From positions 1 through 35,195 of the IMG/VR virus record IMGVR_UViG_3300037840_000127: a stretch of DNA of 35,195 bases; one strand, given 5' to 3'. Made by a program: the position numbers and the translations under genes. This stretch comes from a virus. The notes under the pieces are model-generated. The model worked only from the letters and a program-made list of their open reading frames with translations, had not been told where the DNA came from and searched no databases. Positions 6,977-22,854 of this stretch are shown one piece after another. Each line of letters opens with the position of its first letter. The first letter of the stretch is position 1.

Positions 6977-7015
6977 GGGGCGAAAAGGCTAGGTTTTTCA
7001 AAGACTTAAGGCTAT

Positions 7016-7045
7016 ATTTTATGCTATATACGACTAGTATGGCAA
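7016..7045 (-). promoter_or_regulatory. Second leftward promoter
   Basis: On the minus strand TTGCCA (7040-7045), an 18-nt spacer and TAAAAT (7016-7021). The -10 region sits in TATATAGCATAAAATATAG, which is almost identical to the -10 region of the rightward promoter at 7259-7288, supporting both. Confidence 0.5.
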
Positions 7046-7258
7046 AAACGCGCTCGTACCGGTACGCGTAAGTGTGTCTAGCTGCTTGTTTGTCTGTCTT
7101 GATCTCTCTGTCTGGTGCTTAGTATGTCTTACTGACCTTCTGTGTTTATATAAAAAAAAAATATCTAACTAAAGGGAGGAATTTACCAGCAACCTAAGTC
7201 CCAGGAACATAGTCCCAGGGACACAGACATATACAGACTGGGGGGTAGGTGTCCGTTT

Positions 7259-7288
7259 TTGTGATAATAGGCTTATATAGCGTATAAT
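7259..7288 (+). promoter_or_regulatory. Rightward promoter
   Basis: TTGTGA (7259-7264), an 18-nt spacer and a consensus TATAAT (7283-7288). It shares the TATATAGC-R-TA-W-AATATAG core and a following TTAAG with the leftward promoter at 7016-7045. It would produce a transcript reading into the structured segment at 7541-7826. Confidence 0.55.
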
Positions 7289-7371
7289 ATAGGGGTTAAG
7301 GGCTTGATATAGTTGACTTAATAGAGCTTAAATTGGGGTCGGAATTTTAGTAGCGAATTAGCAAGAGTTAG

Positions 7372-7387
7372 AAGATAAGCTTATCTT
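7372..7387. promoter_or_regulatory. Perfect 16-bp palindrome, possible operator
   Basis: AAGATAAGCTTATCTT is a perfect inverted repeat about 85 nt downstream of the rightward promoter. Its even, spacerless symmetry is compatible with a dimeric repressor site. No repressor gene is identified in the window. Confidence 0.4.
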
Positions 7388-7540
7388 TTCAAGTACTTAA
7401 GGGCCGAAAGTTGCACGAACAGCAAGATGGATCAATATCAGTGTTATTAGCTTAGTTCGGCCCGAAATTTTGATTAGCTCACTGTATAAGCAGCCTAGCA
7501 AGCTTGCCGCTAGGGCGCGAGATTAGCAGCAACATGGCGC

Positions 7541-7563
7541 GTTAGCTCATTAGATGGGCCGAA
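7541..7563 (+). repeat. 23-bp direct repeat, copy 1
   Basis: Identical over 23 bases to 11445-11467 (starts GTTAGCTCATTAGATGGG). Each copy lies upstream of a structured segment that ends in a terminator. A related TTAGCTCA occurs at 7473 before TATAAG. It may be a promoter, operator or shared 5' RNA element. Confidence 0.7.
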
Positions 7564-7826
7564 TATGGGGATCGTAATGTGTGCCGAGCTAGACCCACTC
7601 GCGCGGCTATTGGATATTGATTTTGGCCAATAGGCATTGGCCGTGATGAGCGAAAGCGCCGAGTCGGTACTTAGGGGCGCTCCGAGGCTTTCGCGCACGT
7701 ACGGCCCTCCTAGCGGCCCAATGCCGCCGCGCCGTTGTTCCGTTGACCGCTCTGCTCGCTCGCCTCCGGTTTGCTCGCGCCAAGGCAAAAATAATTCGGT
7801 CGCTCGCGATCGCTCGCGAGATTTTT
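7564..7826 (+). ncRNA. Candidate structured RNA or leader before the 7906 gene
   Basis: The segment can fold into several perfect stems on the plus strand: CTATTGG 7607-7613 with 7627-7633, GCGAAAGC 7650-7657 with 7687-7694 (enclosing a GCC/GGC pairing), and a terminal GC-rich hairpin at 7803-7820 followed by T5. It begins directly after the 23-bp repeat. No convincing protein is encoded. It could be a free small RNA or the attenuated leader of the rightward transcript. Folding was done by eye. Confidence 0.4.
7803..7826 (+). terminator. Rho-independent-like terminator
   Basis: CTCGCG (7803-7808) pairs with CGCGAG (7815-7820) across a six-base loop, followed by ATTTTT. It would end the transcript coming from the 7259 promoter just before the next promoter begins at 7828. 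Confidence 0.55.
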
Positions 7827-7827
7827 G

Positions 7828-7856
7828 TTGACGCACACGCTCTAGCGTGCGATAAA
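7828..7856 (+). promoter_or_regulatory. Promoter with dyad operator for the 7906 gene
   Basis: TTGACG (7828-7833), a 17-nt spacer and GATAAA (7851-7856). The spacer contains a 14-bp dyad, CACGCTCTAGCGTG (7836-7849), in a position where a bound repressor would block polymerase. The predicted transcript would start near 7863, right at a GGTTAG/CTAACC hairpin (7863-7884) that could protect its 5' end. Confidence 0.6.
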
Positions 7857-7905
7857 GATCGCGGTTAGGCGATGTTGTCTAACCGATTAGGAAGGAAGCT
7901 AAGAC

Positions 7906-8511
7906 ATGGCACAAAGCTCAACCGCTCGCGTTCACGAAGTCGGCGAGCACTCGGATAACGTGATGTCGCGCCTTGCCGAGCATGCGTCGCGCTACGTCAA
8001 GATCGTTGCCGGCTATACGGTCGCCGTGAAAGCACCTTATGCGGCCGGTCACGTTTGTTCCGACAAGGACGCCCGCGCACTCAATTGGGCTTACACCAAT
8101 CGCGCCGGAAGCGTCGCGAATTCGGCCGTTACGCGCGGCAAGGAAAGCAAGCTCGACGACGCTGGCAAGATGGCTTACTTGACGGGCTACCTAAACGGTG
8201 GCTATTCGTTTACCGATGACCTCGGTAGCGAATTTTCTAGCTCGCTTCTCGAAACCGCCGCCGATCGGCTTGTATTCGAGCTCGGCGTCAAGCAAGGCAA
8301 GCTTAGCGGCGTCTACTCAGACCACGACACTAGCGTTGAGCGCAATAAGCGCGCCGGCGTCGTCAAGAAAGTCCTTACCGATCCGGGCTTAGCCGATAAG
8401 TATGAAGGCCAAGTTCGCGACATGATCGGAACAATCTTAGCCGAGCGTCACGCTATCCAAACCCGCACGGCCGGAAGCAAAGAAGTCGAGCTTGACATTG
8501 ATCTCGCGTAA
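7906..8511 (+). CDS. Unknown protein in its own transcription unit (201 aa)
   Basis: The ATG follows an extended purine-rich ribosome site (AGGAAGGAAG, 7889-7898), a promoter at 7828-7856 and a 5' hairpin; a strong terminator hairpin follows at 8548-8580. This arrangement suggests high, independently controlled expression. The product begins MAQSSTARVHEVGEHSDNVM, is mostly helical, soluble and mildly acidic at the end (VELDIDLA). Codon use is more G/C-ending than in many neighbours. No family is recognised. As the first rightward gene it may be an early regulator or host-takeover protein, but this is inference from position only. Confidence 0.8.
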   Translation: MAQSSTARVHEVGEHSDNVMSRLAEHASRYVKIVAGYTVAVKAPYAAGHVCSDKDARALNWAYTNRAGSVANSAVTRGKESKLDDAGKMAYLTGYLNGGYSFTDDLGSEFSSSLLETAADRLVFELGVKQGKLSGVYSDHDTSVERNKRAGVVKKVLTDPGLADKYEGQVRDMIGTILAERHAIQTRTAGSKEVELDIDLA

Positions 8512-8547
8512 GCACGGCGCGTTACGACAAGTCGTCTAACGCAAACC

Positions 8548-8585
8548 AAGAGCGGCGGTCATAACTAACCCGCCGCTCTTTACTT
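8548..8585 (+). terminator. Strong hairpin terminator
   Basis: A perfect 11-bp stem, AAGAGCGGCGG (8548-8558) with CCGCCGCTCTT (8570-8580), and an 11-nt loop, followed by TACTT. The A-rich 5' side would also allow termination from the opposite strand. A smaller hairpin (CGTTA/CGAC with GTCG/TAACG, about 8520-8541) precedes it. Confidence 0.7.
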
Positions 8586-8601
8586 AAGGGGAGCCAAGCT
8601 T

Positions 8602-8796
8602 ATGTTCGATGTTTACGGCGCTGGCGATAAGCTAATCGCGTCACATGCTTTATTGCGCGACGCAATCGGGGTGCTCGCCGCCGAAGACAACGCTCTAGCT
8701 TACATTGTCGAGCGCGAGACTAACATCACGCTTGCGATAGACAACGAAGCTAGTAAACTCCGGTTCATGCTCGGTGCGAAAGCGAAAGGAAACTAG
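8602..8796 (+). CDS. Hypothetical small protein (64 aa)
   Basis: The product starts MFDVYGAGDKLIASHALLRD and is a short alpha/beta-like protein without recognised motifs. An AGGGGAG element (8586-8592) lies upstream of the ATG at somewhat long spacing. It sits between two terminator hairpins together with the 8802 gene. Function unknown. Confidence 0.6.
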   Translation: MFDVYGAGDKLIASHALLRDAIGVLAAEDNALAYIVERETNITLAIDNEASKLRFMLGAKAKGN

Positions 8797-8801
8797 ATCG
8801 C

Positions 8802-8972
8802 ATGAAGAAACTTGCACTAGGCGCGCTTAAATGGACGGCCATTGCGATTTGGCTTGACATGAGCGACCGCCTTATTGGCTCGCCACTTGACGCCATGTTC
8901 GCGCGCATACATGCACTAGCATGGCTCGATGGTTATACTAACGTTGTCATGACTTGCGCGGGAGGGAGTTAA
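8802..8972 (+). CDS. Hypothetical small protein, possibly membrane-associated (56 aa)
   Basis: The frame starts MKKLALGALKWTAIAIWLDM, a basic N-terminus and a moderately hydrophobic stretch of about 13 residues that is short for a full transmembrane helix. GCGAAAGGA upstream can act as ribosome site. It lies 5 nt after the previous stop, so the two genes are probably cotranscribed and end at the hairpin at 8995-9039. Confidence 0.55.
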   Translation: MKKLALGALKWTAIAIWLDMSDRLIGSPLDAMFARIHALAWLDGYTNVVMTCAGGS

Positions 8973-8994
8973 AGCTAAGCTAAAGTAATTCGCT

Positions 8995-9039
8995 AAGTAA
9001 AGAGCAAGTAAGCCTCGCGCGTTTACTTGCTCTTTACTT
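8995..9039. terminator. 17-bp perfect hairpin, probable bidirectional terminator
   Basis: 8995-9011 pairs perfectly with 9023-9039 around an 11-nt GC-rich loop. The stem ends in AAGTAA/TTACTT, giving U-rich 3' ends on both strands. It separates the 8602-8972 genes from 9155. Confidence 0.65.
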
Positions 9040-9154
9040 CTAGCTGCTAGAGATTCGATCTCCCCGCAGAGAAGATCCCCACCCTGGCGCCAGCGCCAAC
9101 CGAGAGCGTGTAGCAAAAATACCGGTCGAGCAAAATCTATCAAAGAGGTAGCTG

Positions 9155-9469
9155 ATGTCTTGGTTACATAAACAAGCGAAATATGACTTACTGGGAAACT
9201 ACAGCAACTTCAGGCGCGAGCCATTAACAGCAACCATAATAGGGCGCGAAGTCCTACGTCTATTAGGAAATATTCTGCAAGATGGAGATTACATAAAACT
9301 GGAACGGGCGATTTCTACTAGCTGGTTAGAGTCTAAATATAACAGTTTATCTAAAGAAGAGTTAGAACTAAGTCTAGATGACTTAAGCAAAAAGTACCTT
9401 GAATCCTGGGCTTACGAGTTAGCTATCCCAATGATAGCGCCCGAAATTCTGTACTACTGGGCCGTATAG
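9155..9469 (+). CDS. Hypothetical protein (104 aa)
   Basis: The product begins MSWLHKQAKYDLLGNYSNFR and looks wholly helical with acidic stretches (SKEELELSLDDLSKKYLESW). An AGAGG site lies 8 nt before the ATG. Its A+T-rich codon use differs from the 7906 gene. It is followed by 150 nt without a convincing gene (only 10- and 20-codon frames). Function unknown. Confidence 0.65.
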   Translation: MSWLHKQAKYDLLGNYSNFRREPLTATIIGREVLRLLGNILQDGDYIKLERAISTSWLESKYNSLSKEELELSLDDLSKKYLESWAYELAIPMIAPEILYYWAV

Positions 9470-9620
9470 CTATGATAGACGAAATCATATCGCGAATAGA
9501 GTGAGCTAAGCCTATGAAAATCCTACTCAAATTCGGCTCGGGCCTTGATCTTCCTCGCGCGCGCGTATATTTATAAGGCAACGCGAGCCGAGCCGCGCCG
9601 CGCTTAGAGGACGCCACGCC

Positions 9621-10253
9621 ATGCCCTACGGCCGCTCAAAGGGCCTAAACTCTCCGCCGGCCCATCTTCTACCACCTGGCGTCGAGGCCGGCGCGGTTCG
9701 GCCGCTGTTCATCGAGGCCGGGCGCGAGTTAACAGAAGAAGACCTAGTAGCTCTCTCTATAGCTCCAACACGCGCGATCTTTCCTACTAAGCACGTACGG
9801 GCGATTCATCATCGCCAAGCCCAGCTGGTCGCGCTCGGTCGGCCCGACAACGAAGTAGCAGCAATCTGCGGTACTAGCTCAGCTCGCGTGCGAGACTTAA
9901 GGACTAACCCGGCTTTTGCTGATCTAGTATCCTACTATCAAGAACAAAGAATCGAGCTCGATTACGAGACACACTTACGTATTCAAGGCAAACTCGTAGA
10001 CATTCTTGAGCTAACTACGAATGAGATTCAAGAGCGCCTCGACGACGACGCTAAGCGAGCGGCGATCTCTCTCAGTGAGCTACGTAAGACGGCCGAATTT
10101 GCGGCTGATAGAACTATCGCGCCGCCGCGGGCGACGCAGCAAGGTAACGTCACGCCGCCGACTAAGATAAGCTTGAACTTCGGTTGGGCGCCGAAAAAGG
10201 ACCAGCAAGTCGAAGCTCAGACCATCGACGTAACACCGGAGACAAGCTCATGA
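9621..10253 (+). CDS. Putative terminase small subunit
   Basis: A 210-residue protein with a helix-turn-helix-like segment around residues 65-95 (RQAQLVALGRPDNEVAAICG followed by TSSARVRDL) and then NPAFADLVSYYQEQRIELD, a layout typical of phage small terminases: DNA-binding HTH, then a helical oligomerisation region that ends in a flexible tail. Its position at the head of the packaging region agrees. A GAGGA site precedes the ATG and the end overlaps the next start as ATGA. It would recognise the packaging site and recruit TerL. An alternative is a generic HTH DNA-binding protein. Confidence 0.55.
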   Translation: MPYGRSKGLNSPPAHLLPPGVEAGAVRPLFIEAGRELTEEDLVALSIAPTRAIFPTKHVRAIHHRQAQLVALGRPDNEVAAICGTSSARVRDLRTNPAFADLVSYYQEQRIELDYETHLRIQGKLVDILELTTNEIQERLDDDAKRAAISLSELRKTAEFAADRTIAPPRATQQGNVTPPTKISLNFGWAPKKDQQVEAQTIDVTPETSS

Positions 10254-10462
10254 ACATCAAGATAGTAGAGCTGCTAGAACACATGCTGCTAGAAGCTCGG
10301 CGCGGCGAAGTAGCCAGTATAGCTATCGCAACTGTCAAACCCGACTTGTCTACTGGTAGCACGTTTCTTCTTGGTGACAGTTCTTTTTGCGAACTTGTAG
10401 GTTCAGTATCTATACTTAATCATAGATTAATAACGAGCGGCTTCAAAAGTGAGCTAGACTAG
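10250..10462 (+). CDS. Hypothetical small protein (70 aa)
   Basis: The start is the ATG overlapping the previous stop (ATGA), giving MNIKIVELLEHMLLEARRGE and then VASIAIATVKPDLSTGSTFL. The pattern of helix then beta strands with an Asn-x-Arg (NHRL) near the end resembles small phage proteins of unknown function that sit near replication or packaging genes. No confident family. Confidence 0.65.
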   Translation: MNIKIVELLEHMLLEARRGEVASIAIATVKPDLSTGSTFLLGDSSFCELVGSVSILNHRLITSGFKSELD

Positions 10463-10464
10463 TT

Positions 10465-10983
10465 GTGGCCGCCTTACCAGATACCTTCAGGCCAGCTAGG
10501 AACCTTCGCTGGTCGCGCCACGTCTCGACACGGCCGATTCCCAAGCCGAGCTCTACCTGGAGCAAAGTCGGCCTGGCTTACGAGCGGCGCGTCGTTAGCA
10601 GCTTAGCCGAAGCAGGTATTCGGCTCCTACATAACCCTGGCTTCGAGTTCGAAGACGATAGTGGCTCTAACTATTGCGTTCCGGATATAATCTTACCTAA
10701 CTACGACAACAAGCTGATTATCATCGAAGTCAAGCTAACGTATAAGGTCGAAGCCATCTTGAAGCTGAGGAATCTTTACGCGCCGGTCGTCAGCCTGGCT
10801 TTATCGCGCCCCGTTGTCTGTCTCGTCATCGCTAAGAACGTTACGCCGAACTCGCCTGAACCAGAGCTAACCTTGGAGTCAGCAATATGCCAGAGCGCGC
10901 GGAGCGAAATAGCAGCGGCGGGCCGGCCGGGCGTGGGCTTTCTAGTTCAGTGGCTCGGTCGCGGGATGTTTCCGATCAGATAG
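10465..10983 (+). CDS. PD-(D/E)XK superfamily nuclease
   Basis: The 172-residue product has the active-site layout of restriction-endonuclease-fold nucleases: E40 in the first helix (GLAYERRVVSSL), PD at 73-74 at the end of a strand, then E88-V-K90 (IIIEVKLTYK). The domain is small and has no helicase or DNA-recognition add-on, as in phage Holliday-junction resolvases and VRR/Cas4-like accessory nucleases. It starts at GTG directly after the preceding gene. Placement next to terminase genes suggests a role in resolving branched DNA before packaging (inference). Confidence 0.7.
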   Translation: MAALPDTFRPARNLRWSRHVSTRPIPKPSSTWSKVGLAYERRVVSSLAEAGIRLLHNPGFEFEDDSGSNYCVPDIILPNYDNKLIIIEVKLTYKVEAILKLRNLYAPVVSLALSRPVVCLVIAKNVTPNSPEPELTLESAICQSARSEIAAAGRPGVGFLVQWLGRGMFPIR

Positions 10984-11441
10984 TCTCCAGTCACGTTCTC
11001 GTCCGGGCCAATCCAGAGATGATCGTCGCTTGTCTGGAGTGGGCCGGTTCGGTCTTGCTCAGCATGAACATACGCTCACCCAAGCCAGCTGATTATAAAG
11101 TCTTCTGGCCCGAGTTTCCCAGCGACCCAAACGAGGCTTACGGCTATACGAGCGAGCGCTTACGTATAGCAACGCCAAGAGCAACTGATATTGAGCTCAT
11201 GGAAAACATCTTCACATGGCTAAGCTTAATAGATAACGTAGTTGCGCGGCGCATCGTCTGTATTAGAAGCCTAGTTACGCCCGTAAGTGAGCGCTATGTG
11301 TATCATTGGTCCAAGATAGCTATCTTGCTGCATATGGATCGGCGCGGCGTAAAGAGGCTCCATAACTTAGGTATTCAAGACTTATCTAATAAGCTAACTT
11401 TGGTTAGTGTTCAACAGATTGTTTCAGAAATAACTAGTTAG
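10887..11441 (+). CDS. DUF6362-like protein
   Basis: From about residue 45 the protein follows the DUF6362 pattern: MIVACLEWAGSVLLSM at the start, FWPEFPSDPNEAYGY (Trp-Pro then Tyr-Gly), RATDIELMENIFTWLSLID, VVARRIVCIRS, and a terminal HTH-like WSKIAILLHMDRRGVKRLHN. Such proteins occur next to terminase genes in alphaproteobacterial phages and resemble sigma-region-4/HTH DNA binders. The ATG at 10887 has GGAG 8 nt upstream but gives a 97-nt overlap with the nuclease gene; GTG 10950 or ATG 11019 are alternative starts. Role unknown, perhaps DNA binding in packaging or transcription. Confidence 0.6.
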   Translation: MPERAERNSSGGPAGRGLSSSVARSRDVSDQIVSSHVLVRANPEMIVACLEWAGSVLLSMNIRSPKPADYKVFWPEFPSDPNEAYGYTSERLRIATPRATDIELMENIFTWLSLIDNVVARRIVCIRSLVTPVSERYVYHWSKIAILLHMDRRGVKRLHNLGIQDLSNKLTLVSVQQIVSEITS

Positions 11442-11444
11442 TTA

Positions 11445-11467
11445 GTTAGCTCATTAGATGGGCCGAA
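11445..11467 (+). repeat. 23-bp direct repeat, copy 2
   Basis: Identical to 7541-7563. It begins 3 nt after the DUF6362-like gene and lies about 60 nt before the 14-bp closing stem of the structured segment at 11527-11661. Confidence 0.7.
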
Positions 11468-11526
11468 ATCGGGCCTTCGTAAAAAAGCCCTTGACACCAT
11501 GCCCAAGATCGTGCAAGCCTTAGCGT

Positions 11527-11717
11527 ACAATCGGCGCGAGTTTACGACAGGTACGTGATCGCGATGCTCCGGCCGAGTGCGGTCTAGTTCCCCTGGGACC
11601 GCTTTTCAGCTAGGTAGCTAGCTTGATCCGCTTCCTTCCTTGTCGGTCTCGCGCCGATTGTTCCGGTGCTTGGTGCGAAACTAAAGGAGTGCTGCTTCGG
11701 TAGCACTCCTTCTTTTT
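11527..11717 (+). ncRNA. Candidate structured RNA with 14-bp closing stem and terminator
   Basis: ACAATCGGCGCGAG (11527-11540) pairs perfectly with 11648-11661, closing a 135-nt domain. Inside are GCGGTC 11579-11584 with GACCGC 11597-11602 and a short AGCT/AGCT hairpin (11608-11619). A consensus intrinsic terminator follows at once. No frame in the segment looks coding. A TTGACA (11491-11496) lies upstream, but no -10 at normal spacing was found, so the promoter is unresolved. It may be an independent small RNA or the attenuating leader of the gene at 11738. Confidence 0.6.
11684..11717 (+). terminator. Intrinsic terminator with UUCG loop
   Basis: AAGGAGTGCT (11684-11693) pairs with AGCACTCCTT (11702-11711); the stem continues through a G-U pair to a C(UUCG)G tetraloop, and CTTTTTATT follows. 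It lies only 20 nt before the next start codon. Confidence 0.85.
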
Positions 11718-11737
11718 ATTCGCGAGCGTGAGCTAGC

Positions 11738-12550
11738 TTGATAGAGTTCTCCCAACCTAATCTACCCGACAAGATAGCCCAAAGCGTCTTCAACGAAGCT
11801 AGTATAGCTGCTTGCGAATGGTGCTCGCCGCGTAGTTTCAGGCTCGAAGCCGGCTTAGCTTGGCTAGCGAGCCGAGCGTTTATTGGCGAAAAAGATCAGC
11901 AATTCTGGTTTATCGGCCCCGATTTCGGCGCTTGCGTAAGCGCGATGAACACCCTCAAGGGCGCGCTAACACCAGGTAGCTTTACACCAGCCCAACGCGC
12001 GCCGGCGTTCAACTTAATTAACGGTTCTAGTCTTTACTTCAAGAGCGCCGAAAATATAAACGCCCTCTTTGCTGATGCAGTTTTCGGCGCCGTGATCGAT
12101 CAAGCTATTCACGTTCCGGAGAAAGCCTGGAGCGCGCTACAGAGGACTTTCGCCAACACACATACGCCCTTGCGCGTTCGCTCGACCGTGGCTGGTAGAG
12201 CGAACTGGTTCTACGATTTCGCGCGCCAGGTCGAGCGCGACAATACTAGCGAGCCCGAGCGCTACTTCTTCTCGCGCTTCTCTTGCTATGACGCGCTTGA
12301 AGCCGAGCTGATCGAGCAAGAAGACATAGACTACGCCCGGGCGACTTTGCCAGATCACGTCTTCAGGGCGCTTTACTTAGCAGAAGCCTACGACGACAGA
12401 ATCGAAGCCGCGCACAAAGCCGCTGACGCGAGGCTCATGACCGACACTGAGCTCGCGATCATAGCCAATATAGATCCTAACGAGCTCGACGCGATCAGCG
12501 ACGAAGAGCTAGCGAGTTTAGCTCAGGAAAGATCATGGACGAACGCCTAA
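11738..12550 (+). CDS. Terminase large-subunit-like ATPase domain, catalytically degenerate
   Basis: This 270-residue protein follows the TerL ATPase domain: a strand/loop where Walker A should be (CSPRSFRL, 29-36), FWFIGPDF (56-63), a nucleic-acid loop with NGSSLYFKSAEN (95-106), AVIDQA (118-123) at Walker B, RSTVAGRANWFYD (148-160) at the coupling motif, and the linker pattern FSCYDALEAELIEQEDIDYA to YLAEAYDD (181-220). Walker A lacks GK[ST], and the catalytic Glu after the Walker B Asp is Gln (Q122). The nuclease domain is absent. A complete TerL lies at 15350. It is therefore probably a non-hydrolysing partner or relic. The start is TTG with a weak ribosome site, 20 nt behind a terminator. 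Confidence 0.65.
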   Translation: MIEFSQPNLPDKIAQSVFNEASIAACEWCSPRSFRLEAGLAWLASRAFIGEKDQQFWFIGPDFGACVSAMNTLKGALTPGSFTPAQRAPAFNLINGSSLYFKSAENINALFADAVFGAVIDQAIHVPEKAWSALQRTFANTHTPLRVRSTVAGRANWFYDFARQVERDNTSEPERYFFSRFSCYDALEAELIEQEDIDYARATLPDHVFRALYLAEAYDDRIEAAHKAADARLMTDTELAIIANIDPNELDAISDEELASLAQERSWTNA

Positions 12551-13047
12551 GCAGCTTCGCGAACCGCCTTATCGAGGCGCTAAAAAAGCAATACCTTACT
12601 GCTGACACGAGCCCGAATACGTTCCTCGCTTATGATCCATTAATCCCGAAGTACCTAATCAACAAATTCCATAACATAGTTTGTCAGGTCGAGAGAGCTT
12701 TTCTCGATGAAGTAGACTTGCCTTGGCACGACGATATTGTTAAGGCAGCGGCCGATCCTGGTCGCCTAATTCAGCAGTATGTCGAAGTCATGCTTGCTGG
12801 CAATTATGAATTAGAAAAGGCCCTGGACGGCTTAGAAATAGATAGCTATCTTATAGGGCATAACTTAGCAGTGGCTGCTTCAGACATCGAGTGCTTGTAT
12901 TCATTAGACGTTCCAGGCGGCCTGATTATTGGCTTGCGTATCCGAGCCATTCGCGCGCTCGTGGCCTGGGATATATGTAATGCTGGCTATCGAGCGCGAT
13001 TCGACATAATCGGTAAGAAACGAGATCCAAAACCACTCTCAACTTAG
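12535..13047 (+). CDS. Hypothetical helical protein (170 aa)
   Basis: The ATG (MDERLSSFANRLIEALKKQY) lies 16 nt inside the end of the TerL-like gene, with AGGAAAGATC upstream as ribosome site. The protein looks almost entirely helical and soluble, ending in a basic tail (GKKRDPKPLST). No family recognised. Coupling to the TerL-like gene suggests a joint role. Confidence 0.7.
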   Translation: MDERLSSFANRLIEALKKQYLTADTSPNTFLAYDPLIPKYLINKFHNIVCQVERAFLDEVDLPWHDDIVKAAADPGRLIQQYVEVMLAGNYELEKALDGLEIDSYLIGHNLAVAASDIECLYSLDVPGGLIIGLRIRAIRALVAWDICNAGYRARFDIIGKKRDPKPLST

Positions 13048-13058
13048 GAGTCTAGACT

Positions 13059-13283
13059 ATGGACGACAAAGGCATCACGACCTCGAATATGCGCGGTAAG
13101 ATGAAGGGCGGCTCGATCTTCTCCGACGCGCCGAGTATGCCCCAGGAACACGGCGACAGCGCCATGCAAAACACAGCCGTCGGCAGCGGATCGAGGCCGA
13201 CTAAATCTAAGTTCATGATCGACACTACGGCGCCAAGCGACCCACATACTATGGGCCGGAAAACGCCAGGCGCCCTGGAGTAA
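13059..13283 (+). CDS. Small disordered protein (74 aa)
   Basis: The product (MDDKGITTSNMRGKMKGGSI ... TMGRKTPGALE) is rich in Gly, Ser, Pro, Lys and Met and lacks predicted secondary structure. TAGGAGTC precedes the ATG at good spacing. It is the first of three small low-complexity genes in a row. Function unknown; a minor virion or head protein is possible from position. Confidence 0.65.
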   Translation: MDDKGITTSNMRGKMKGGSIFSDAPSMPQEHGDSAMQNTAVGSGSRPTKSKFMIDTTAPSDPHTMGRKTPGALE

Positions 13284-13297
13284 AGGAATCTTTTTAG

Positions 13298-13630
13298 ATG
13301 CCTTATATTCCAGGTGTCGGGCGGGGCGTACCGGGGATAACTACTCCGACACCTACTATGCCGAGTTTCCCTAAGCGCTCCAAGTCTAGCCAATCTAATC
13401 CCTCTTCACAGGAAGATACTCCTAAACAAAAGGCCGCGGCTGCAAAGCAAGAGGCTGCTACAAGAAAATCACAGCAATATAGAGACTCGCAAGACCCGAA
13501 TAAGACTATGGATTCACGTGGCAACTATGTCGCTAAACCAACACCAAGTGAGCAGAACTATGGTCGCGGTCTTCACAGATATGGCGACGAGTGGGACGGC
13601 CAAACACCAACTACGGATTGGGATAAATAA
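13298..13630 (+). CDS. Small disordered protein with C-terminal WD motif (110 aa)
   Basis: Pro/Thr/Ser-rich N-terminus (MPYIPGVGRGVPGITTPTPT), an Ala/Lys/Gln helix around residues 43-60, and a final YGDEWDGQTPTTDWDK. The same motif recurs in the N-terminus of the next gene product. AAAGGAATC precedes the ATG. Function unknown. Confidence 0.65.
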   Translation: MPYIPGVGRGVPGITTPTPTMPSFPKRSKSSQSNPSSQEDTPKQKAAAAKQEAATRKSQQYRDSQDPNKTMDSRGNYVAKPTPSEQNYGRGLHRYGDEWDGQTPTTDWDK

Positions 13631-13632
13631 CT

Positions 13633-13920
13633 ATGGCTAACGGCAATGGTGGCTCCAACGACATGGGGCCGTATGGTCACGAATGGGATGAGCAGACTAC
13701 TACGTCTGACTGGGACGCGCCTTCCCGGCCGAAGTTCACAGTCGGAAAGAGTATGAAACCTCTTACAGAGAAGACTGATCCTAGTAGTAAGCCTAACTAC
13801 TCGTTCCCAAGTAATCCAAACCCGCGCATGAGTAATAGGGCGCGCGAAAATTGGCAGAATAGAACAAATGCAAATACAGCTGCCAATCGAAAGTCTGATG
13901 CTACGGGCGGCCAACAGTAA
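13633..13920 (+). CDS. Small disordered protein with N-terminal WD motif (95 aa)
   Basis: Residues 14-28 read YGHEWDEQTTTSDWD, matching 10 of 15 positions at the end of the previous product. The remainder is Asn/Pro/Lys/Ser-rich with no predicted fold. It starts 3 nt after the previous stop. The shared motif at the junction suggests an ancient duplication. Function unknown. Confidence 0.65.
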   Translation: MANGNGGSNDMGPYGHEWDEQTTTSDWDAPSRPKFTVGKSMKPLTEKTDPSSKPNYSFPSNPNPRMSNRARENWQNRTNANTAANRKSDATGGQQ

Positions 13921-13935
13921 AGAAAGCCTCTAGTT

Positions 13936-14220
13936 ATGAGCGAAAAGTTCCATCAGGTCACGCCGCTTTTCTGGTACATCAACGCCGATGCTAACGGCAC
14001 TGTGGCGTTGCCGAATCCGGCTGCTAGCGGCGGCCCCGTAGCGCCGATCGGCCTCCAGGTAGCCGTGCTCGATAATATGGGCTTAGCGGCGACGACGAAC
14101 ATTACTATTACGGGGCCGATTAACGGCGGCTCTAGCGGAACCAGCTTGACGACGAACTACGCCTGGGCGCTCTTTATCTGGTCCGGCGCGACTTGGATGC
14201 AACTCGGCCCGGCGGTCTGA
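13936..14220 (+). CDS. Small beta-rich protein, possible virion component (94 aa)
   Basis: The product starts MSEKFHQVTPLFWYINADAN and consists of predicted strands with Gly/Ala/Thr-rich turns (NITITGPINGGSSGTSLTTN) and a final WALFIWSGATWMQLGPAV. This composition is common in phage decoration or fibre-associated proteins, but no family is recognised. It is followed by the next gene after 3 nt. Confidence 0.65.
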   Translation: MSEKFHQVTPLFWYINADANGTVALPNPAASGGPVAPIGLQVAVLDNMGLAATTNITITGPINGGSSGTSLTTNYAWALFIWSGATWMQLGPAV

Positions 14221-14223
14221 GCC

Positions 14224-14814
14224 ATGCTTGATGAGAGGCTGATTACTTTCGCGCGTCGTCACGTGCTTAAGAGGCCGAGAGTTTCAGCGGGCATGCTATG
14301 CCGGGAAGCTCTAGTGATCTTCTCTAAGGAAAACGATCTCGAAGCTCCGGAGCTGGGCCGCTTATTTGGCGAAACGAGTTTTCTAGAGCATGTCGGTAAC
14401 CAGAAACTCTTAGGCAACACAAAGCTCTCTCAGTATGGCGTTTGGTTCTTCGTCGATCCGAAGATGCTCGAAGCGAGTTTAGCCGACCTAGATGCTGATT
14501 ATATTCGGCCGGCTATGGCGTGGCTCAAGTCGTCATTGCCGAATAAAGTTGAGTTTGCTCTGCCGTCGGGCTTCGAGAATCCTAAAGGTGTCGAAAGTAG
14601 CGCCATCGAGAGATTCGACGGCATTGAAATGCGCTGCATTATAGATAAGATACCAACTGACCGGAGCCATACTAAGCAAGCCGGCGCGAACGTACCAGCA
14701 ACATGGATTCGGCGCGAGCGTTGGTATAACGTACACGAAGACGAATTTCAAGCTGACGTACCGCTAGCCTACGCTATTCGCTTCGACGTGCGCGTACTCC
14801 CTACAGTAACATGA
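14224..14814 (+). CDS. Hypothetical protein (196 aa)
   Basis: The product begins MLDERLITFARRHVLKRPRV and looks alpha/beta and globular, with a Trp/Arg-rich segment near residue 160 (ATWIRRERWYNVHEDEFQAD). It is the last gene before the terminator-like hairpin at 14824 and the long structured leader in front of TerL. No family recognised. Confidence 0.7.
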   Translation: MLDERLITFARRHVLKRPRVSAGMLCREALVIFSKENDLEAPELGRLFGETSFLEHVGNQKLLGNTKLSQYGVWFFVDPKMLEASLADLDADYIRPAMAWLKSSLPNKVEFALPSGFENPKGVESSAIERFDGIEMRCIIDKIPTDRSHTKQAGANVPATWIRRERWYNVHEDEFQADVPLAYAIRFDVRVLPTVT

Positions 14815-14823
14815 ATTTCGCCG

Positions 14824-14870
14824 GTCGCTGCTACGCGGGCTTTGTCTCGACAACGGCAGCGGCTTTATTT
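14824..14870 (+). terminator. Terminator-like hairpin after the 14224 gene
   Basis: GTCGCTGC (14824-14831) pairs with GCAGCGGC (14856-14863) over eight pairs including one G-U, and is followed by TTTATTT. The 24-nt loop is long for a classical terminator, so efficiency is uncertain. Confidence 0.45.
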
Positions 14871-15041
14871 CAACCCCTAAGCCCAAAGGACGGCAGAGGA
14901 GAGTGGTCCCCTCCAGCAGGCCATCGTGTCTGTAGCGCGAGCTCTTTGTGTGCTACGAGCTAGTGTCGCAAAGTCGAGCGTTGGCGTACTTGATTCGGAT
15001 GTGCAAGTTGTTTGTAAACTCATTCAAGTACGACGCCAACT
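14871..15041 (+). ncRNA. Structured leader with possible pseudoknot upstream of the TerL gene pair
   Basis: Two strong elements are visible. GTAGCGC (14932-14938) pairs with GTGCTAC (14950-14956), and CTTTG in its loop (14944-14948) can pair with CAAAG at 14969-14973, an H-type pseudoknot. Then 14980-14993 pairs with 15024-15040 over 14 bp with a three-base bulge. The second stem ends 2 nt before an AAGGAG ribosome site. No coding frame is convincing here. It could control translation of the genes at 15054/15096 and 15350 or act as a separate RNA. Confidence 0.5.
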
Positions 15042-15053
15042 TAAGGAGTTTAA

Positions 15054-15353
15054 GTGGGGTATTCCAGAGCTTGTCAGGACATACGTGAGGAACTGATGGC
15101 AGTTCAGACTATTGACATACTTGGAGAGCTCATCGAGACGGGGATACATTTCTATGTATTTCGGCCCGATGTGGATCTTAAGGATCGGTGGATTCCGAAG
15201 CGTTATACTGAATATAACCATGCTTCGCGAACCTTGAATATGCCTGTTTTCGTAGCCAGCAAGTATGGTCTAGCCGGTCAAGCCACGTATAGAGTATGCT
15301 CTTCGGGCGGTATAGAATGGATACCACCAGATAGTTATGCTGTAAAGCAGTGA
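15054..15353 (+). CDS. Hypothetical protein coupled to TerL (99 or 85 aa)
   Basis: The GTG at 15054 has AAGGAG five bases upstream directly after the leader stem. The ATG at 15096 (MAVQTIDILGELIETGIHFY) has GAGG upstream and gives the more protein-like N-terminus; both are plausible. The product is a small alpha/beta protein ending SSGGIEWIPPDSYAVKQ. Its stop overlaps the TerL GTG (GTGA), so TerL translation is probably coupled to it. Function unknown. Confidence 0.6.
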   Translation: MGYSRACQDIREELMAVQTIDILGELIETGIHFYVFRPDVDLKDRWIPKRYTEYNHASRTLNMPVFVASKYGLAGQATYRVCSSGGIEWIPPDSYAVKQ

Positions 15354-16789
15354 ATCTGATTACGCCTTCGGCTGCGGCTGAACTTCTCTTGGCTCGGCGT
15401 TTAGCTAAGCGAAATATGGTCGATTACGTTGAGTATCTTGACCTGGGCTTCGCGCCGGCGCGCCATCATAAGTTCATGTGTGACAAGCTCGACGCCGTTG
15501 AACGTGGTGAGATAGATAAGCTTATGTTGTTCTTACCACCAGGCAGCGCCAAAAGTAAGTACTCGTCAGAGCTGTTCCCGGCTCGATACTTAGGGCTTAA
15601 TCCGACTAAAGCTATCTTAGCTTGCTCACATACTCAGCCGCTCGCGGAACGTTTCGGCCGCCGAGTTAGGAATCTTTTTTCGCAGCCCGAACACGCGGCG
15701 CTCTTTTCTGTCAGTATAGCTAAGGATGAAAAAGCCGCTTCGCATTGGTCAACAGAACAAGAGGGCGAGTACTTAGCAGCTGGCGTCGGTGTTGCTATCT
15801 CGGGCCGGCGTGCTGATCTAGGCTTGATTGACGATCCGGTTAAGAATCGCGAGGATGCCGATAGTCTAAGATCGCAAGAAGCTACTTGGGACTGGTATAT
15901 AAATGATTTCTTGCCGCGCTTGAAGCCTCACGCCGCGCAGATTCTTATCCAGACTCGTTGGAGCGAGGGCGATTTAGCAGGACGAATTCTTGATCGCGAG
16001 GCTTCAGAGTGGACCGTTGTTGAGCTCCCGATGGAAGCTCGCGAGGATGATCCGCTAGGGCGCGAGCTTGGCGAGCGCTTGTGGCCGGAATGGTTCACGG
16101 AGAAGCAAGTCGAGACAGCCAAGCTCGACGCGCGCTCCTGGTCAGCACTTTATCAGCAGAGACCCGTCTCAGAAGAAGGCGAGTACTTTAAGTTAGCCTG
16201 GTTTGGAACCGAGTATGACTCGATCCCGAATAACGCTCACTTCTACGGCGCGAGTGATTACGCGGTTACGGAAGGCCACGGCGACTTTACGGAACACGGC
16301 GTATTCGCGTTAGACGCTTTCGGCAATCTTTATGTTGTTGATTGGTGGCGTGGGCAAACTACTTCTGACGTTTGGATCGAGCATCAACTCGACTTGATTC
16401 ACCAATATGAGCCGCTAAGATGGTTCGGTGAGTCTGGGCCGATTCGGCGCTCGATTGAGCCGTACTTGGCTAATAGAATGGCGCAACGTAACGCGAACGT
16501 CTGGATCGAGTGGTTAGCTAGCGTTAATGATAAAGCCACTCGTTTAAGATCGTTTCAAGCTCTAGCCTCGCGCGGTAAGGTCTTTTTCCCGCGCTACGCA
16601 TCTTGGAAAGCTGAGCTTCTTACGCAGCTTACACACTTTCCGGCCGGTAAACACGACGACGGCGTTGACGTATGCTCGCTCATAGGCCGCGGTCTTGATC
16701 TTGTTCAGGCGCCGAAAATGAAGCGCTGGACGACGAATAGTAATCTAAATACCTCCGAGTCGAATGAACTAGGTTGGTTAGCGAGTTGA
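15350..16789 (+). CDS. terL: Terminase large subunit (ATPase and nuclease)
   Basis: A full-length 479-residue TerL. The N-terminal ATPase has Walker A LPPGSAKS (62-69), Walker B LGLIDD (157-162) followed by the characteristic PVKNREDADS, and a coupling-type QTRWSEGDLAGRIL (201-214). The C-terminal RNase H-like nuclease has D303 (ASDYAV), the central GES (360-362) and HDDGVD (435-440). It cuts concatemeric DNA and pumps it into the prohead through the portal. The start is a GTG overlapping the previous stop. The stop overlaps the next ATG by one base (TGATG). Contrast with the degenerate copy at 11738. Confidence 0.95.
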   Translation: MNLITPSAAAELLLARRLAKRNMVDYVEYLDLGFAPARHHKFMCDKLDAVERGEIDKLMLFLPPGSAKSKYSSELFPARYLGLNPTKAILACSHTQPLAERFGRRVRNLFSQPEHAALFSVSIAKDEKAASHWSTEQEGEYLAAGVGVAISGRRADLGLIDDPVKNREDADSLRSQEATWDWYINDFLPRLKPHAAQILIQTRWSEGDLAGRILDREASEWTVVELPMEAREDDPLGRELGERLWPEWFTEKQVETAKLDARSWSALYQQRPVSEEGEYFKLAWFGTEYDSIPNNAHFYGASDYAVTEGHGDFTEHGVFALDAFGNLYVVDWWRGQTTSDVWIEHQLDLIHQYEPLRWFGESGPIRRSIEPYLANRMAQRNANVWIEWLASVNDKATRLRSFQALASRGKVFFPRYASWKAELLTQLTHFPAGKHDDGVDVCSLIGRGLDLVQAPKMKRWTTNSNLNTSESNELGWLAS

Positions 16790-18978
16790 TGAAAGCTATT
16801 TTTGCTGTTACTCTTTTGCTTGTGTTTGCTTTCTTAACTCCTGAAAGTCAAGCTCAGGGCGTTATACAGCAATTCGGTAATCTTATTGCCGGCGATCTTA
16901 TTATGTCGCAGGGTAACAATCGTGGCGTTGATGCTGGTAACGCCGTTGTACCGACTTTACCTGGTACTCGTCCGTTTGGCGTCGGTATTGTTAATTCTGG
17001 TTTTGGTTTCTGCCAGTGGAACACTGATCCAGGTGCTAATACGGCTTGGAACCAATTATGTTGGGGCTTTAATAGTTCTGGAGCAGGAGTTATTAATTAT
17101 AGTAATATGAATACCACTGCTAATAATCTTCTTCTTCAGGTCAATGGCAATACCGATTTGACACTTAATAATTTTGGCGCTAGTGGTGTTACTCAGCCCT
17201 GTTCAGATGCGAGCACTCTGTTAGCTACTGATGCTTACACACATAATTGTGTCTCTATTACTGGCGGTATTACTGCGGCTAGTAATTCTGTTTTGGAGGC
17301 TACTCCATCAACAGCCACAACTTCTATAGTACGGCTCGGCTTTGATACTCCTGGAGACTCGCCGTCACTTCAGTTTATACCTAGTAATGCAGCATGCTCA
17401 CTGAACGCTGGCGCGGGTGACGGCGGATCGCAAGTCCCATCAGCTGACGGGAAGTGCTGGCTCGCGTCATTTCCGTCTACTGGCGCTGATGCGAGCGAGT
17501 TTGAGGCAGTGGGTGACGGAACCTATACGGGTAGCACTGGGACAGACAATTCCGTCGCACTGCAAAACTGGCTGAACTACGGGATCATTGTGGGAAACAA
17601 GCTCACTTTGCAGTGTAAGACTTATATGTTTAGGACGCCACTGGCGGTGGCGGCGATTCCCATATCGCTGCATGGAGGAGGATCGGGTTGTGGCGGTCTG
17701 CGCTATTTCGGGAGCAGCACGACGGCGAATTTGATTACAATGGGAACAGTTGGCACACCAACAAACACGCCAACGATTTCTGGACTCCGGGTTTCCTCGG
17801 CGACGATGATGACGGGCGGGACTGGGCTTACTTTGAATAGTCCGAACCAAGCTGTGCTCGACGACGTAAGCATGAATACGCAGTTCGGCGATTTCCCGGC
17901 GACGCTGTGGAATGGTTTGGCGATTGTCAACGGCAGCGTGAAGTACACCAATTTTGACGATAATGGGCAAAATGATGTCATACAATGCTACACTGCCTCG
18001 GGTGCGACGCTAGAGAGCGTGGATGAACGCATTGCTGGTCCCGGCAAGATTGCCGAGGGCGCGATCGGATTTCACCAGGGCGGCGGTTGTGGGGGCGTCG
18101 TGGTTGGCGCGAACGTCGATGTTATTGCCAATACGCAGAATATCGTACAGGACAACACACTCAACGCCTCGGCGCCCAACTCGCAGCTCTTCATGCACGG
18201 TGTCCTCGATACGCCGACCGAGGACAACCTGGTTGTCAACGACACCGTTCAGGGCGGCGGCCAGGAGTTGATTTTTGATGGCTGGGCCGCCTCGGCCCCG
18301 CGCTATGGCATCCGCATCGAGGCTTATCCGCATGGAATCGTGCATATCCCGTCTGGGCAAATCATTGCAAATGTTCAAGACGGTATCCGTTTAGAGGACA
18401 ATACGGCATCGCTCGTAATAGGCGCTCCGCTGATTGATAGCAATGGATCGGCTGGCGGCGGCTATGGACTCGACTGTACGGTTGCGGTCAACATTACCGG
18501 CATGAACTCGCTGCCGTTCAATAATTATGCTGGCCACGACATTAACGCAACGAATTGCCATTCTGGCGGTGTACTTTCGTCGTCTGCGGTCTCGTGGATA
18601 CCAGGCCTCACCTTCGCCAGCGGCTCGGGTTGGACTTATGAAGCGAATGTTGGTTCGTTTCAGGTCGTCGGTGGTGTGGCGACGATGAATTTCTATATTC
18701 AGTTTTCAGCATTGGGTACTGCTTCTGGACAGGCGTCCTTGAATCTTCCGGTAACATGCCTTGGTAATTCAATGGCCCGCGGGGATGTTGGAATGCTTTC
18801 GAAGGCTACTGGGATGCAGACGTTGCTGTCATGGCCGATTGGACTTTCTGCCGATGGGGCCAATGCCGCCCTATTTACTGAATTGAATGTCGCGCAGACG
18901 GCATCCCAACAATTGACGGCAGCCAATTTCACAGCATCCTCTGCGATTGAAGGGCAGTTAAGCTGCCCGATCTACTAG
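16789..18978 (+). CDS. Tailspike-like protein with signal peptide
   Basis: The start was set at the ATG overlapping the TerL stop, because it opens a clear signal peptide: MKAIFAVTLLLVFAF then LTPESQAQG. The 729-residue body has Asn/Gly/Ser/Thr-rich strand repeats typical of right-handed beta-helix spikes, a lyase-like GDGTYTGSTGTDNSVALQNW around residue 245 that resembles the pectate-lyase-like start of spike beta-helices, and a C-terminal jelly-roll-like domain (WIPGLTFASGSGWTYEANVG, then a strand-rich end). It probably binds or degrades a host surface polysaccharide. From about 17,400 onward codon choice becomes richer in G/C, suggesting a foreign receptor-binding part. A signal peptide is unusual for a virion protein. 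Confidence 0.7.
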   Translation: MKAIFAVTLLLVFAFLTPESQAQGVIQQFGNLIAGDLIMSQGNNRGVDAGNAVVPTLPGTRPFGVGIVNSGFGFCQWNTDPGANTAWNQLCWGFNSSGAGVINYSNMNTTANNLLLQVNGNTDLTLNNFGASGVTQPCSDASTLLATDAYTHNCVSITGGITAASNSVLEATPSTATTSIVRLGFDTPGDSPSLQFIPSNAACSLNAGAGDGGSQVPSADGKCWLASFPSTGADASEFEAVGDGTYTGSTGTDNSVALQNWLNYGIIVGNKLTLQCKTYMFRTPLAVAAIPISLHGGGSGCGGLRYFGSSTTANLITMGTVGTPTNTPTISGLRVSSATMMTGGTGLTLNSPNQAVLDDVSMNTQFGDFPATLWNGLAIVNGSVKYTNFDDNGQNDVIQCYTASGATLESVDERIAGPGKIAEGAIGFHQGGGCGGVVVGANVDVIANTQNIVQDNTLNASAPNSQLFMHGVLDTPTEDNLVVNDTVQGGGQELIFDGWAASAPRYGIRIEAYPHGIVHIPSGQIIANVQDGIRLEDNTASLVIGAPLIDSNGSAGGGYGLDCTVAVNITGMNSLPFNNYAGHDINATNCHSGGVLSSSAVSWIPGLTFASGSGWTYEANVGSFQVVGGVATMNFYIQFSALGTASGQASLNLPVTCLGNSMARGDVGMLSKATGMQTLLSWPIGLSADGANAALFTELNVAQTASQQLTAANFTASSAIEGQLSCPIY

Positions 18979-19035
18979 ATGGCCTACGACGAGAATCTTC
19001 GTGTCCTTGCTGAGTTAGCTAACGACAACATTTGA
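18979..19035 (+). CDS. Possible 18-residue peptide
   Basis: An ATG immediately after the spike stop opens MAYDENLRVLAELANDNI. It has no own ribosome site and may be translated by reinitiation, or be the remnant of a gene disrupted when the spike gene was inserted. Confidence 0.25.
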   Translation: MAYDENLRVLAELANDNI

Positions 19036-19045
19036 GAGATGTAAT

Positions 19046-19234
19046 ATGCCAGCTAAACATGAAGAAATGCCGTTCAAGACTTATCCGGGACGGTCTAGGC
19101 CGAAAGAGATCGAGGATCGACCAGAAGAGAAGCATGGCCGAAGCTTGATGACGCAGCACGATCCGCAGCCCGACTGGGGTCGAGATATAGAGAATAAACT
19201 TGCTGCTAAGCGGCGCCTTACTAGAACGCCATGA
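19046..19234 (+). CDS. Small charged protein (62 aa)
   Basis: The product (MPAKHEEMPFKTYPGRSRPK ... LAAKRRLTRTP) is rich in Lys, Arg, Glu and Pro and probably disordered. GAGAG precedes the ATG. Its stop overlaps the next start (ATGA). No family recognised. Confidence 0.6.
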   Translation: MPAKHEEMPFKTYPGRSRPKEIEDRPEEKHGRSLMTQHDPQPDWGRDIENKLAAKRRLTRTP

Positions 19235-19476
19235 GCGAAATTAAGAAAAGCACGTTCAGCGAATACTCGTTCTATTCGATCTTGCTCGACTCGGATGCAC
19301 TTAGGATCAGCGTCAGCGATGGTCGAACAGGCGAGTACTTCGCGATTGTTCCTAAGCCGAGCTCCGGTAAGTCACTCAGTAAAGTCCGCGAAGCAACTCT
19401 TAACGCCATTGAAGCGTATATGGACGCCGGTTATCTTCCTGGTGAAGTTAAGGTTGACTTGAAGGTAGACTTGTGA
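19231..19476 (+). CDS. Hypothetical small protein (81 aa)
   Basis: Starts MSEIKKSTFSEYSFYSILLD and looks like a small alpha/beta protein with strands at residues 20-45 and a helix (SLSKVREATLNAIEAYMDAG). Coupled to both neighbours by 4-nt overlaps. Function unknown; it lies just ahead of portal. Confidence 0.65.
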   Translation: MSEIKKSTFSEYSFYSILLDSDALRISVSDGRTGEYFAIVPKPSSGKSLSKVREATLNAIEAYMDAGYLPGEVKVDLKVDL

Positions 19477-19625
19477 AGACAATTAAAGAAGCCAAGCTTA
19501 AGATAGATAAAGCTCCGAAGCTTAAGGAAGTTAAGGTTCCTAAGACACCGGCTATGTTGAGGACGCGCGTTTCTAGATCGGGTTCGTCTAGCAAAGGCTC
19601 TGGCGGCGGTAAAAAAGGCTACTAA
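19473..19625 (+). CDS. Small basic protein (50 aa)
   Basis: A GTG overlapping the previous stop (GTGA) opens MKTIKEAKLKIDKAPKLKEV, ending in a Gly/Ser/Lys-rich tail (SSSKGSGGGKKGY). About one residue in three is Lys or Arg. It fills the gap between its neighbour and portal exactly. Possible nucleic-acid binding; function unknown. Confidence 0.6.
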   Translation: MKTIKEAKLKIDKAPKLKEVKVPKTPAMLRTRVSRSGSSSKGSGGGKKGY

Positions 19626-19626
19626 G

Positions 19627-22600: not shown

Positions 22601-22854
22601 AGCAACTTATCTCGCAGCTTAACGATCGTAATCAAGACCGCCAGTTGGCGCGCGAGAGGATTAATCGTAACTTCGAGGTTCAGCTACTTGGCGTCGTTCA
22701 AAAAGCTCAAGCCGCGGCGACTAAGGTAGCTGCTGAAGATCGGCGCGCTGAGGCTGATCATCTTCACGATCTTGCTAAAGAAGTCCTAGGCTTATATACG
22801 GACCTAACTAAAGGCTCTGGTGAGAGACAAGAGGGAGCCATTAGTAATGGCTAA
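19627..22854 (+). CDS. P22-type portal protein interrupted by an intein
   Basis: The 1075-residue reading frame consists of a 369-residue N-extein, a 339-residue intein (370-708) and a 367-residue C-extein. The joined exteins give 736 residues, close to the 725 of P22 portal. P22-portal-like features are the N-terminal FYSGDQWPADVRARR, LTMNKLPVLVKQVTNDQRQN, the junction region YNYWR|TSEMERVALAPKAPF and a long Gln-rich C-terminal coiled coil (about residues 975-1060). Portal forms the dodecameric DNA entrance of the head and docks TerL and the gp4-type proteins. Start GTG is one base after the previous stop, with a weak ribosome site. Virion assembly requires intein removal. Confidence 0.92.
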   Translation: MQDPEKPLNDGAIRLPTVTPGMNRIAPTSLNDSQDGKVRFLRAETKDQVEEDNEILGRARKRLERCISAEADNRRDGLDDDKFYSGDQWPADVRARRNSEKRPCLTMNKLPVLVKQVTNDQRQNRPTIDYHPIGDRGDIDVARIYRGLVRDIERQSRADRAYDTGYESAARKGWGYWRIITEYEAPDTFDQVIRVKRIRNAYSVYLDPDNTEIDGSDAKFGFITEMIERDEFKLKWPKADPMPWVMGGFGDSLKNWVDQYAIRIAEYYEIIQEERELVLLENGFEGWRDELKKEVLDKFSIVSSRRSLVPKIWWYKITAKDILERTEWPGRWIPIVKVIGDEIDIEGRVKLWGIIRQAKDAQRAYNYWRCLSISTPIPTPSGWTTMGQLKTGDKVFDENGAVCNIIGESPVHINRECFRVEFGNGTHIVADADHPWKVLDKVQKVSKIVWVPRVVNTRDLKPGDHFISQAAPLNLPESDFAIHPYLLGVWLGDGLTSEPQISAGDLDVEETRENIAKLGYPVGPIRVDHTANVFSVLGVRHYFTELGLLGNKYLPQKYLRASESQRWALLQGLMDTDGSINTKTYQCSFTTTNQKISDGMMELLTSLGIKGAIIYRNRGMMRLPGNVVRECADSHQISFSCPWWEEVFRLHRKASIQNKERPTHKLRTKGPHKIVAVERTVSTPVKCIKVDSESHLFLAGKGMIPTHNTSEMERVALAPKAPFIIAEGQLEGYEGSWKEANNKSFAFLPYKATEIHGHMVPPPQRQQPVGVDAGVVSAAQSAAQDMLTTTGVRFDATLNERTYDESGRALRELRRSGDIGSFNLIDNLMHSLRHTGEIFADLIPKIYNRPNRVLTILRDDDTDEQVRVDPFGSKPVHEDQNPETQRVMRAFDPTYGKYAVAVTIGPSYATRRIETAESMMDFLRAIPTSAPLIADLVAKNQDWEGSEEIATRLAKTLPPGLNQPEMRDVAPEIQAMLGQLQNQLQQMTQERQQLISQLNDRNQDRQLARERINRNFEVQLLGVVQKAQAAATKVAAEDRRAEADHLHDLAKEVLGLYTDLTKGSGERQEGAISNG
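20734..21750 (+). mobile_element. Intein with LAGLIDADG homing endonuclease in portal
   Basis: Codons 370-708 of the portal frame. Block A starts with C370 (CLSISTPIPTPSGWTTMGQL), block B includes H434 (ADADHPW), the two endonuclease motifs are LLGVWLGDG (D493) and LQGLMDTDG (D577), and block F ends in GKGMIPTHN with H707-N708 followed by T709 as the +1 extein nucleophile. All residues needed for splicing and both endonuclease acidic residues are present, so both activities are probably intact. The DNA is visibly richer in A+T than the exteins, consistent with recent invasion. Exact boundaries follow from motif and extein continuity. Confidence 0.93.

Follow-up and report, generated by a model that had tools for sequence, protein, structure and literature searches.

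The window (the whole 35,195-nt virus record analysed here) belongs to a bacterial virus known solely from metagenomes. Pfam and PHROGs assign it a P22-type portal, a phrog_283 major head protein and, at 15350, a large terminase (TerL; phrog_38 / Terminase_6N) whose best named-phage match is Pseudanabaena phage Pam1 (48%). The portal gene (19627-22854) is interrupted by an intein that has a LAGLIDADG endonuclease domain. The locus described here lies between a DUF6362 gene (10887-11441) and a TerL-like gene (11738-12550). Three viral contigs (L001, L002 and L003) share this neighbourhood, with 96-98% identity in the 11738 protein; the RNA locus is covered in L001 and L002, while L003 starts past it. 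The features of the locus are:

11445-11467, plus strand: 23-bp element GTTAGCTCATTAGATGGGCCGAA, an exact copy of 7541-7563; possible regulatory site
11491-11496, plus strand: TTGACA, a possible -35 element read from the sequence; absent from the listed promoter-like sites
11527-11540, plus strand: 5' arm of the 14-bp closing stem; perfect inverted repeat, invariant in the window, L001 and L002
11545-11551, plus strand: 5' side (CGACAGG) of the 7-bp second stem, pairing with 11638-11645 in the three-sequence consensus fold
11552-11629, plus strand: inner branched region, of uncertain fold
11630-11640, plus strand: CU-rich strand GCUUCCUUCCU, invariant, its core largely unpaired; proposed seed, antisense to 7889-7899
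11638-11645, plus strand: 3' side of the second stem in the same consensus fold, overlapping the end of the CU-rich strand
11642-11647, plus strand: GUCGGU, proposed second pairing block, with 7882-7887
11648-11661, plus strand: 3' arm of the 14-bp closing stem; perfect inverted repeat, likewise invariant in all three
11684-11717, plus strand: intrinsic terminator with a 12-bp stem, UUCG loop and U-run
11738-12550, plus strand: gene for a dead TerL ATPase domain, its nuclease domain missing; probably outside the RNA unit

The first-pass annotation described a perfect 14-bp stem that encloses a 135-nt domain, and both lie exactly where it placed them. The arms (ACAATCGGCGCGAG and CTCGCGCCGATTGT) are perfect and have 107 nt between them; such a pair is rare but not unique, as the window has eight inverted repeats of 12 nt or longer within 250 nt, this one included. 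The segment 11521-11720 folds with -88.4 kcal/mol (z = -5.4, with none of 200 shuffles as stable), and the full 11445-11740 stretch with z = -5.1. The inner 107 nt, folded alone, are unremarkable (z = -1.2), so it is the outer stem and the terminator that supply the thermodynamic signal. As the minus strand of the segment folds equally well (z = -5.9), the strand of the RNA is assigned from the T-run. This run follows the terminator hairpin (AAGGAGTGCTGC-TTCG-GTAGCACTCCTT, then CTTTTTATT, 11684-11720), whose 12 pairs are the most of all terminator-like sites in 7000-20000 and which is found where the UUCG-looped terminator had been reported. The fold of 11661-11720 has z = -3.6, and the TTG start codon of the 11738 gene comes about 20 nt past the T-run, also as reported.

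Constraint on the RNA is evident from the two contigs that cover it. The window differs from each of L001 and L002 at 7 of 192 sites (3.6%), compared to 12-32% at the 4-fold sites of the neighbouring genes, so the RNA is under strong purifying selection. The 5' boundary is sharp in L001, where 11442-11524 is 54% identical versus 94% inside the RNA. Within the 135-nt domain, differences among the three sequences are confined to the inner branched region (11552-11629), and all pairs of the 7-bp stem are kept in the consensus fold. The covariation check, based on three sequences of which two are nearly identical, gives no two-sided, five one-sided and no pair-breaking changes, each of the five being to or from a wobble pair. 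Judged from these alignments, conservation of the RNA sequence is clear, while conservation of its structure is compatible with the data but unproven, since no two-sided change occurs among the three sequences. A discrete non-coding unit with its own terminator and evolutionary constraint, as expected of a small regulatory RNA, is thus present, and it is very probably a real, functional structured RNA. By these comparisons, the RNA is restricted to this clade and protected by selection.

The promoter of the RNA is less distinct. No convincing -10 box was noted in a scan for promoter-like sites and by inspection upstream. The TTGACA is also found in L001, about 32 nt before CAATCGG and amid diverged surroundings; this kept hexamer is the sole hint, and suggests that the RNA may have a promoter of its own. 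The 23-bp element at 11445-11467 has two copies, both intergenic, where none is expected by chance, and is perhaps a candidate regulator-binding site; a palindrome (TTCGGCCCGAA) at 7456 is related to it.

The 11738 gene had been called a dead TerL-like gene, and comparison bears this out. The P-loop, STKAGKT in intact relatives, reads SPRSFRL or SPKSARV in the window and in L011, a virus with a homologue of the gene; VIDE is replaced by VIDQ or VLDQ, such that the catalytic Glu is lost, and the nuclease domain is missing. Since the protein is 57-58% conserved with its L011 homologue, the gene appears to be kept dead instead of decaying, and its product looks like a retained pseudo-ATPase. The dead domain is conserved alongside the intact TerL (15350). 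A predicted structure model of it (mean pLDDT 37) is too poor for use.

A structured domain, a terminator and a start codon 20 nt on form the usual layout of an attenuator, and the first-pass annotation offered two functions that tie the RNA to the 11738 gene, along with that of an independent small RNA; of these the last is supported. A cis-acting leader (attenuator or riboswitch) of the 11738 operon is very unlikely, as the RNA is not constantly adjacent to this gene: in L002 the terminator and the 11738 homologue are parted by a 114-aa gene that has a good ribosome site of its own, and in L011 the homologue is present without the RNA, with a different small gene and a plain terminator ahead of it. 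No antiterminator pairing is evident in the predicted folds, as seen without a dedicated search, and the riboswitch families of Rfam are unmatched. The same two arrangements in L002 and L011 indicate that the RNA, of about 190 nt, probably stands alone; its sequence constraint, its own terminator and its persistence when separated by a gene from 11738 agree with this. The other suggestion, a packaging RNA that partners the TerL-like ATPase in the manner of phi29, is tempting in that a structured phage RNA lies near a packaging-ATPase-related gene, as in phi29, and nothing more than this proximity speaks for it. The packaging genes here are of another type (an ordinary tailed-phage terminase, the phrog_38 / Terminase_6N TerL, and a P22-type portal in the same phage, not a phi29-type motor), the neighbouring ATPase is catalytically dead, the Rfam family of the phi29 pRNA is unmatched, and related phages with a homologous TerL are without the RNA in the stretches searched. 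A packaging role of this kind is extremely improbable, and the link to packaging RNA is corrected here as unsupported.

A possible target of the RNA is noted 3.6 kb away. The features of this second locus are:

7541-7563, plus strand: the 23-bp element again, here upstream of gene 7906; kept in loci L008 and L010
7882-7899, plus strand: proposed target site ACCGAU-U-AGGAAGGAAGC in the Shine-Dalgarno region of 7906, by complementarity to the RNA
7906-8511, plus strand: proposed target gene (201 aa), which matches no family

Over 11 nt the CU-rich strand is perfectly complementary to AGGAAGGAAGC at the 7906 ribosome site (7889-7899), a sequence with a single sense-strand occurrence in the window. 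The adjoining GUCGGU pairs with ACCGAU in the window (one G-U) or ACCGAC in the relatives (all Watson-Crick). Together these form 11 + 6 pairs across a small interruption, kept in three of three phages, and the core of the strand is largely unpaired in all three folds. By contiguous helix, 7906 is the best among 48 start regions; neither gapped pairing scores nor unrestricted duplex energies single it out or rank it first. Ribosome sites are purine-rich and are thus easily matched by a CU-rich strand. The chance of the match is 0.07 when the whole RNA is shuffled, 0.26 by a helix-energy null, and 0.005 when the exposed strand is considered alone, the last being optimistic because the strand was chosen after the match was seen. 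With a chance of about 0.005-0.26 depending on the null, 7906 is a lead only. The L011 virus, where the RNA is absent, has a 7906 homologue without that ribosome-site sequence; this fits a target, as a single case. By complementarity, 7906 is a plausible and testable target, though somewhat less likely than not to be one.

Several observations surround this gene. Upstream, a promoter-like TTGACG-N17-GATAAA is read from the sequence, and a non-coding 70-nt block (7691-7760) is about 90% identical in both relatives versus 61-82% in its flanks. The region 7541-7830, which has the 23-bp element and ends in a terminator-like hairpin, was considered as a paralogous RNA and rejected (z = +0.9, no fold in common). 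The predicted structure model of the 7906 protein (mean pLDDT 43) is too poor for use.

The reading proposed is that 11525-11717 encodes an independent phage small RNA, about 190 nt long, built of the 14-bp closing stem, the 7-bp stem, the inner branched region and the intrinsic terminator. It would either be transcribed rightward from a promoter just upstream or be processed out of the transcript that comes before it, as the 3' part of that transcript; its 5' end is a predicted one. The CU-rich strand (11630-11640) and GUCGGU (11642-11647) would then pair in trans with the Shine-Dalgarno region of the 7906 mRNA (7882-7899), such that ribosome binding would be blocked and less 7906 protein made once the RNA accumulates. 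We give this reading as a whole, a small RNA acting in trans as antisense to the 7906 Shine-Dalgarno, a probability of roughly 0.4. A further step would make a feedback circuit: in the course of infection the RNA, at the end of a rightward block, would shut off translation of 7906, the gene that heads this block, and the 23-bp elements at 7541 and 11445 would coordinate both loci. Such a circuit is improbable.

Other explanations share part of this evidence. The RNA comes after the stop codon of the DUF6362 gene (11441) and could simply close the transcript that precedes it, as a terminator plus a folded 3' UTR that stabilises the message of DUF6362 and the genes before it, with no activity in trans. 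L011 does have a plain terminator at the equivalent position, behind its nuclease gene; however, near-invariance over about 110 nt, the unpaired strand included, is unneeded for a terminator or stabiliser, and in L001 the upstream UTR diverges while the RNA does not, which makes this explanation unlikely. Both strands fold alike and terminase-related genes are nearby, as would suit a DNA site (a pac/cos packaging site or a protein-binding site) in which the inverted repeat acts as DNA and the terminator follows by chance. While pac sites can occur near terminase genes, a strong terminator and sense-strand features reside at this same locus, and the non-coding block 14801-15053, which lies closer to TerL, exceeds it in conservation; a DNA site is quite unlikely. 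The evidence for a constrained RNA applies equally if the main target of the stand-alone RNA is in the host (an mRNA, a small RNA or a titrated protein) and the 7906 match is a coincidence. Phage RNAs often act on the host (PMC12197685) and the 7906 nulls leave room for chance; the sole specific match found is in the phage, and a host target is somewhat unlikely.

The small RNA proposed here has parallels among known regulatory RNAs. The c4 antisense RNA of phages P1 and P7 is structured and has, in an exposed loop, a complementary stretch directed against a ribosome site on a phage mRNA (PMC12197685). The RNA of the window similarly exposes a complement to a phage ribosome site, with pairing that is predicted, but is without an Rfam match, and its proposed target is 3.6 kb off and not an antirepressor. 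The sar RNA of phage P22 blocks translation initiation of the ant mRNA by base pairing (PMC12197685). A similar block of a phage mRNA by pairing is proposed here, in a phage that has a P22-type portal, while the RNA locus is separate from the proposed target and this target is not ant. The RNA described here is much more structured than P22 sar RNA. OppZ and CarZ of Vibrio cholerae are autoregulatory RNAs derived from 3' UTRs by RNase E processing (PMC7398697). Like these, the RNA lies with a terminator at the end of a gene block and would pair with an upstream transcript to inhibit translation; OppZ and CarZ are by contrast bacterial and RNase E-processed. A transcript shared by 7906 and the RNA would make an OppZ/CarZ-like feedback loop, but such a transcript is doubtful because of possible terminators at 8551-8585 and 8995-9039. 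The former (approximate coordinates, past gene 7906) is a GC-rich hairpin with a T-rich tail, and the latter a perfect 17-bp inverted repeat (AAGTAAAGAGCAAGTAA); both are terminator-like.

The RNA is a new family of a familiar kind, outside Rfam, where no match reaches the gathering score and none is credible up to E = 10. Blastn against a phage collection gives zero matches, viral contigs scanned three times for exact patterns, each time with different conserved blocks, yield nothing beyond L001 and L002, and covariance-model searches of the fetched loci find these same two contigs. A match in L033 rests on a terminator hairpin and is not counted as a relative, and no carrier genome is among the genome contigs scanned with the dead-TerL and TerL alignments. 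Membership in known classes was also considered and rejected: (i) c4 antisense RNA (no match at the gathering score and none to the family up to E = 10), (ii) 6S RNA (Rfam family unmatched), (iii) type III toxin-antitoxin RNA or ToxI (no Rfam antitoxin match, a dead TerL domain in place of a ToxN-like gene downstream, and no PADLOC match on the neighbouring genes), (iv) retron ncRNA (Pfam, PHROGs and PADLOC show no reverse transcriptase in the genes around the RNA), and (v) transposon ends (the 14-bp arm is found just as this pair across all fetched loci).

Few phage small RNAs are known outside the model phages, and annotation of phages from metagenomes mostly stops at proteins. The clear boundary, constrained core and one specific, testable target described here indicate that comparison of a handful of contigs can reveal such RNAs. 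Another non-coding region of the same virus, 14801-15053, just upstream of the gene pair 15054/TerL, has no match in Rfam and is 98% identical over 239 nt, above the RNA itself. Within it, 14921-15040 shows no difference (100% identity) in L008, L009 and L010, and a long hairpin spans about 14980-15041 (z = -2.5); this region is possibly a packaging site or a leader RNA.
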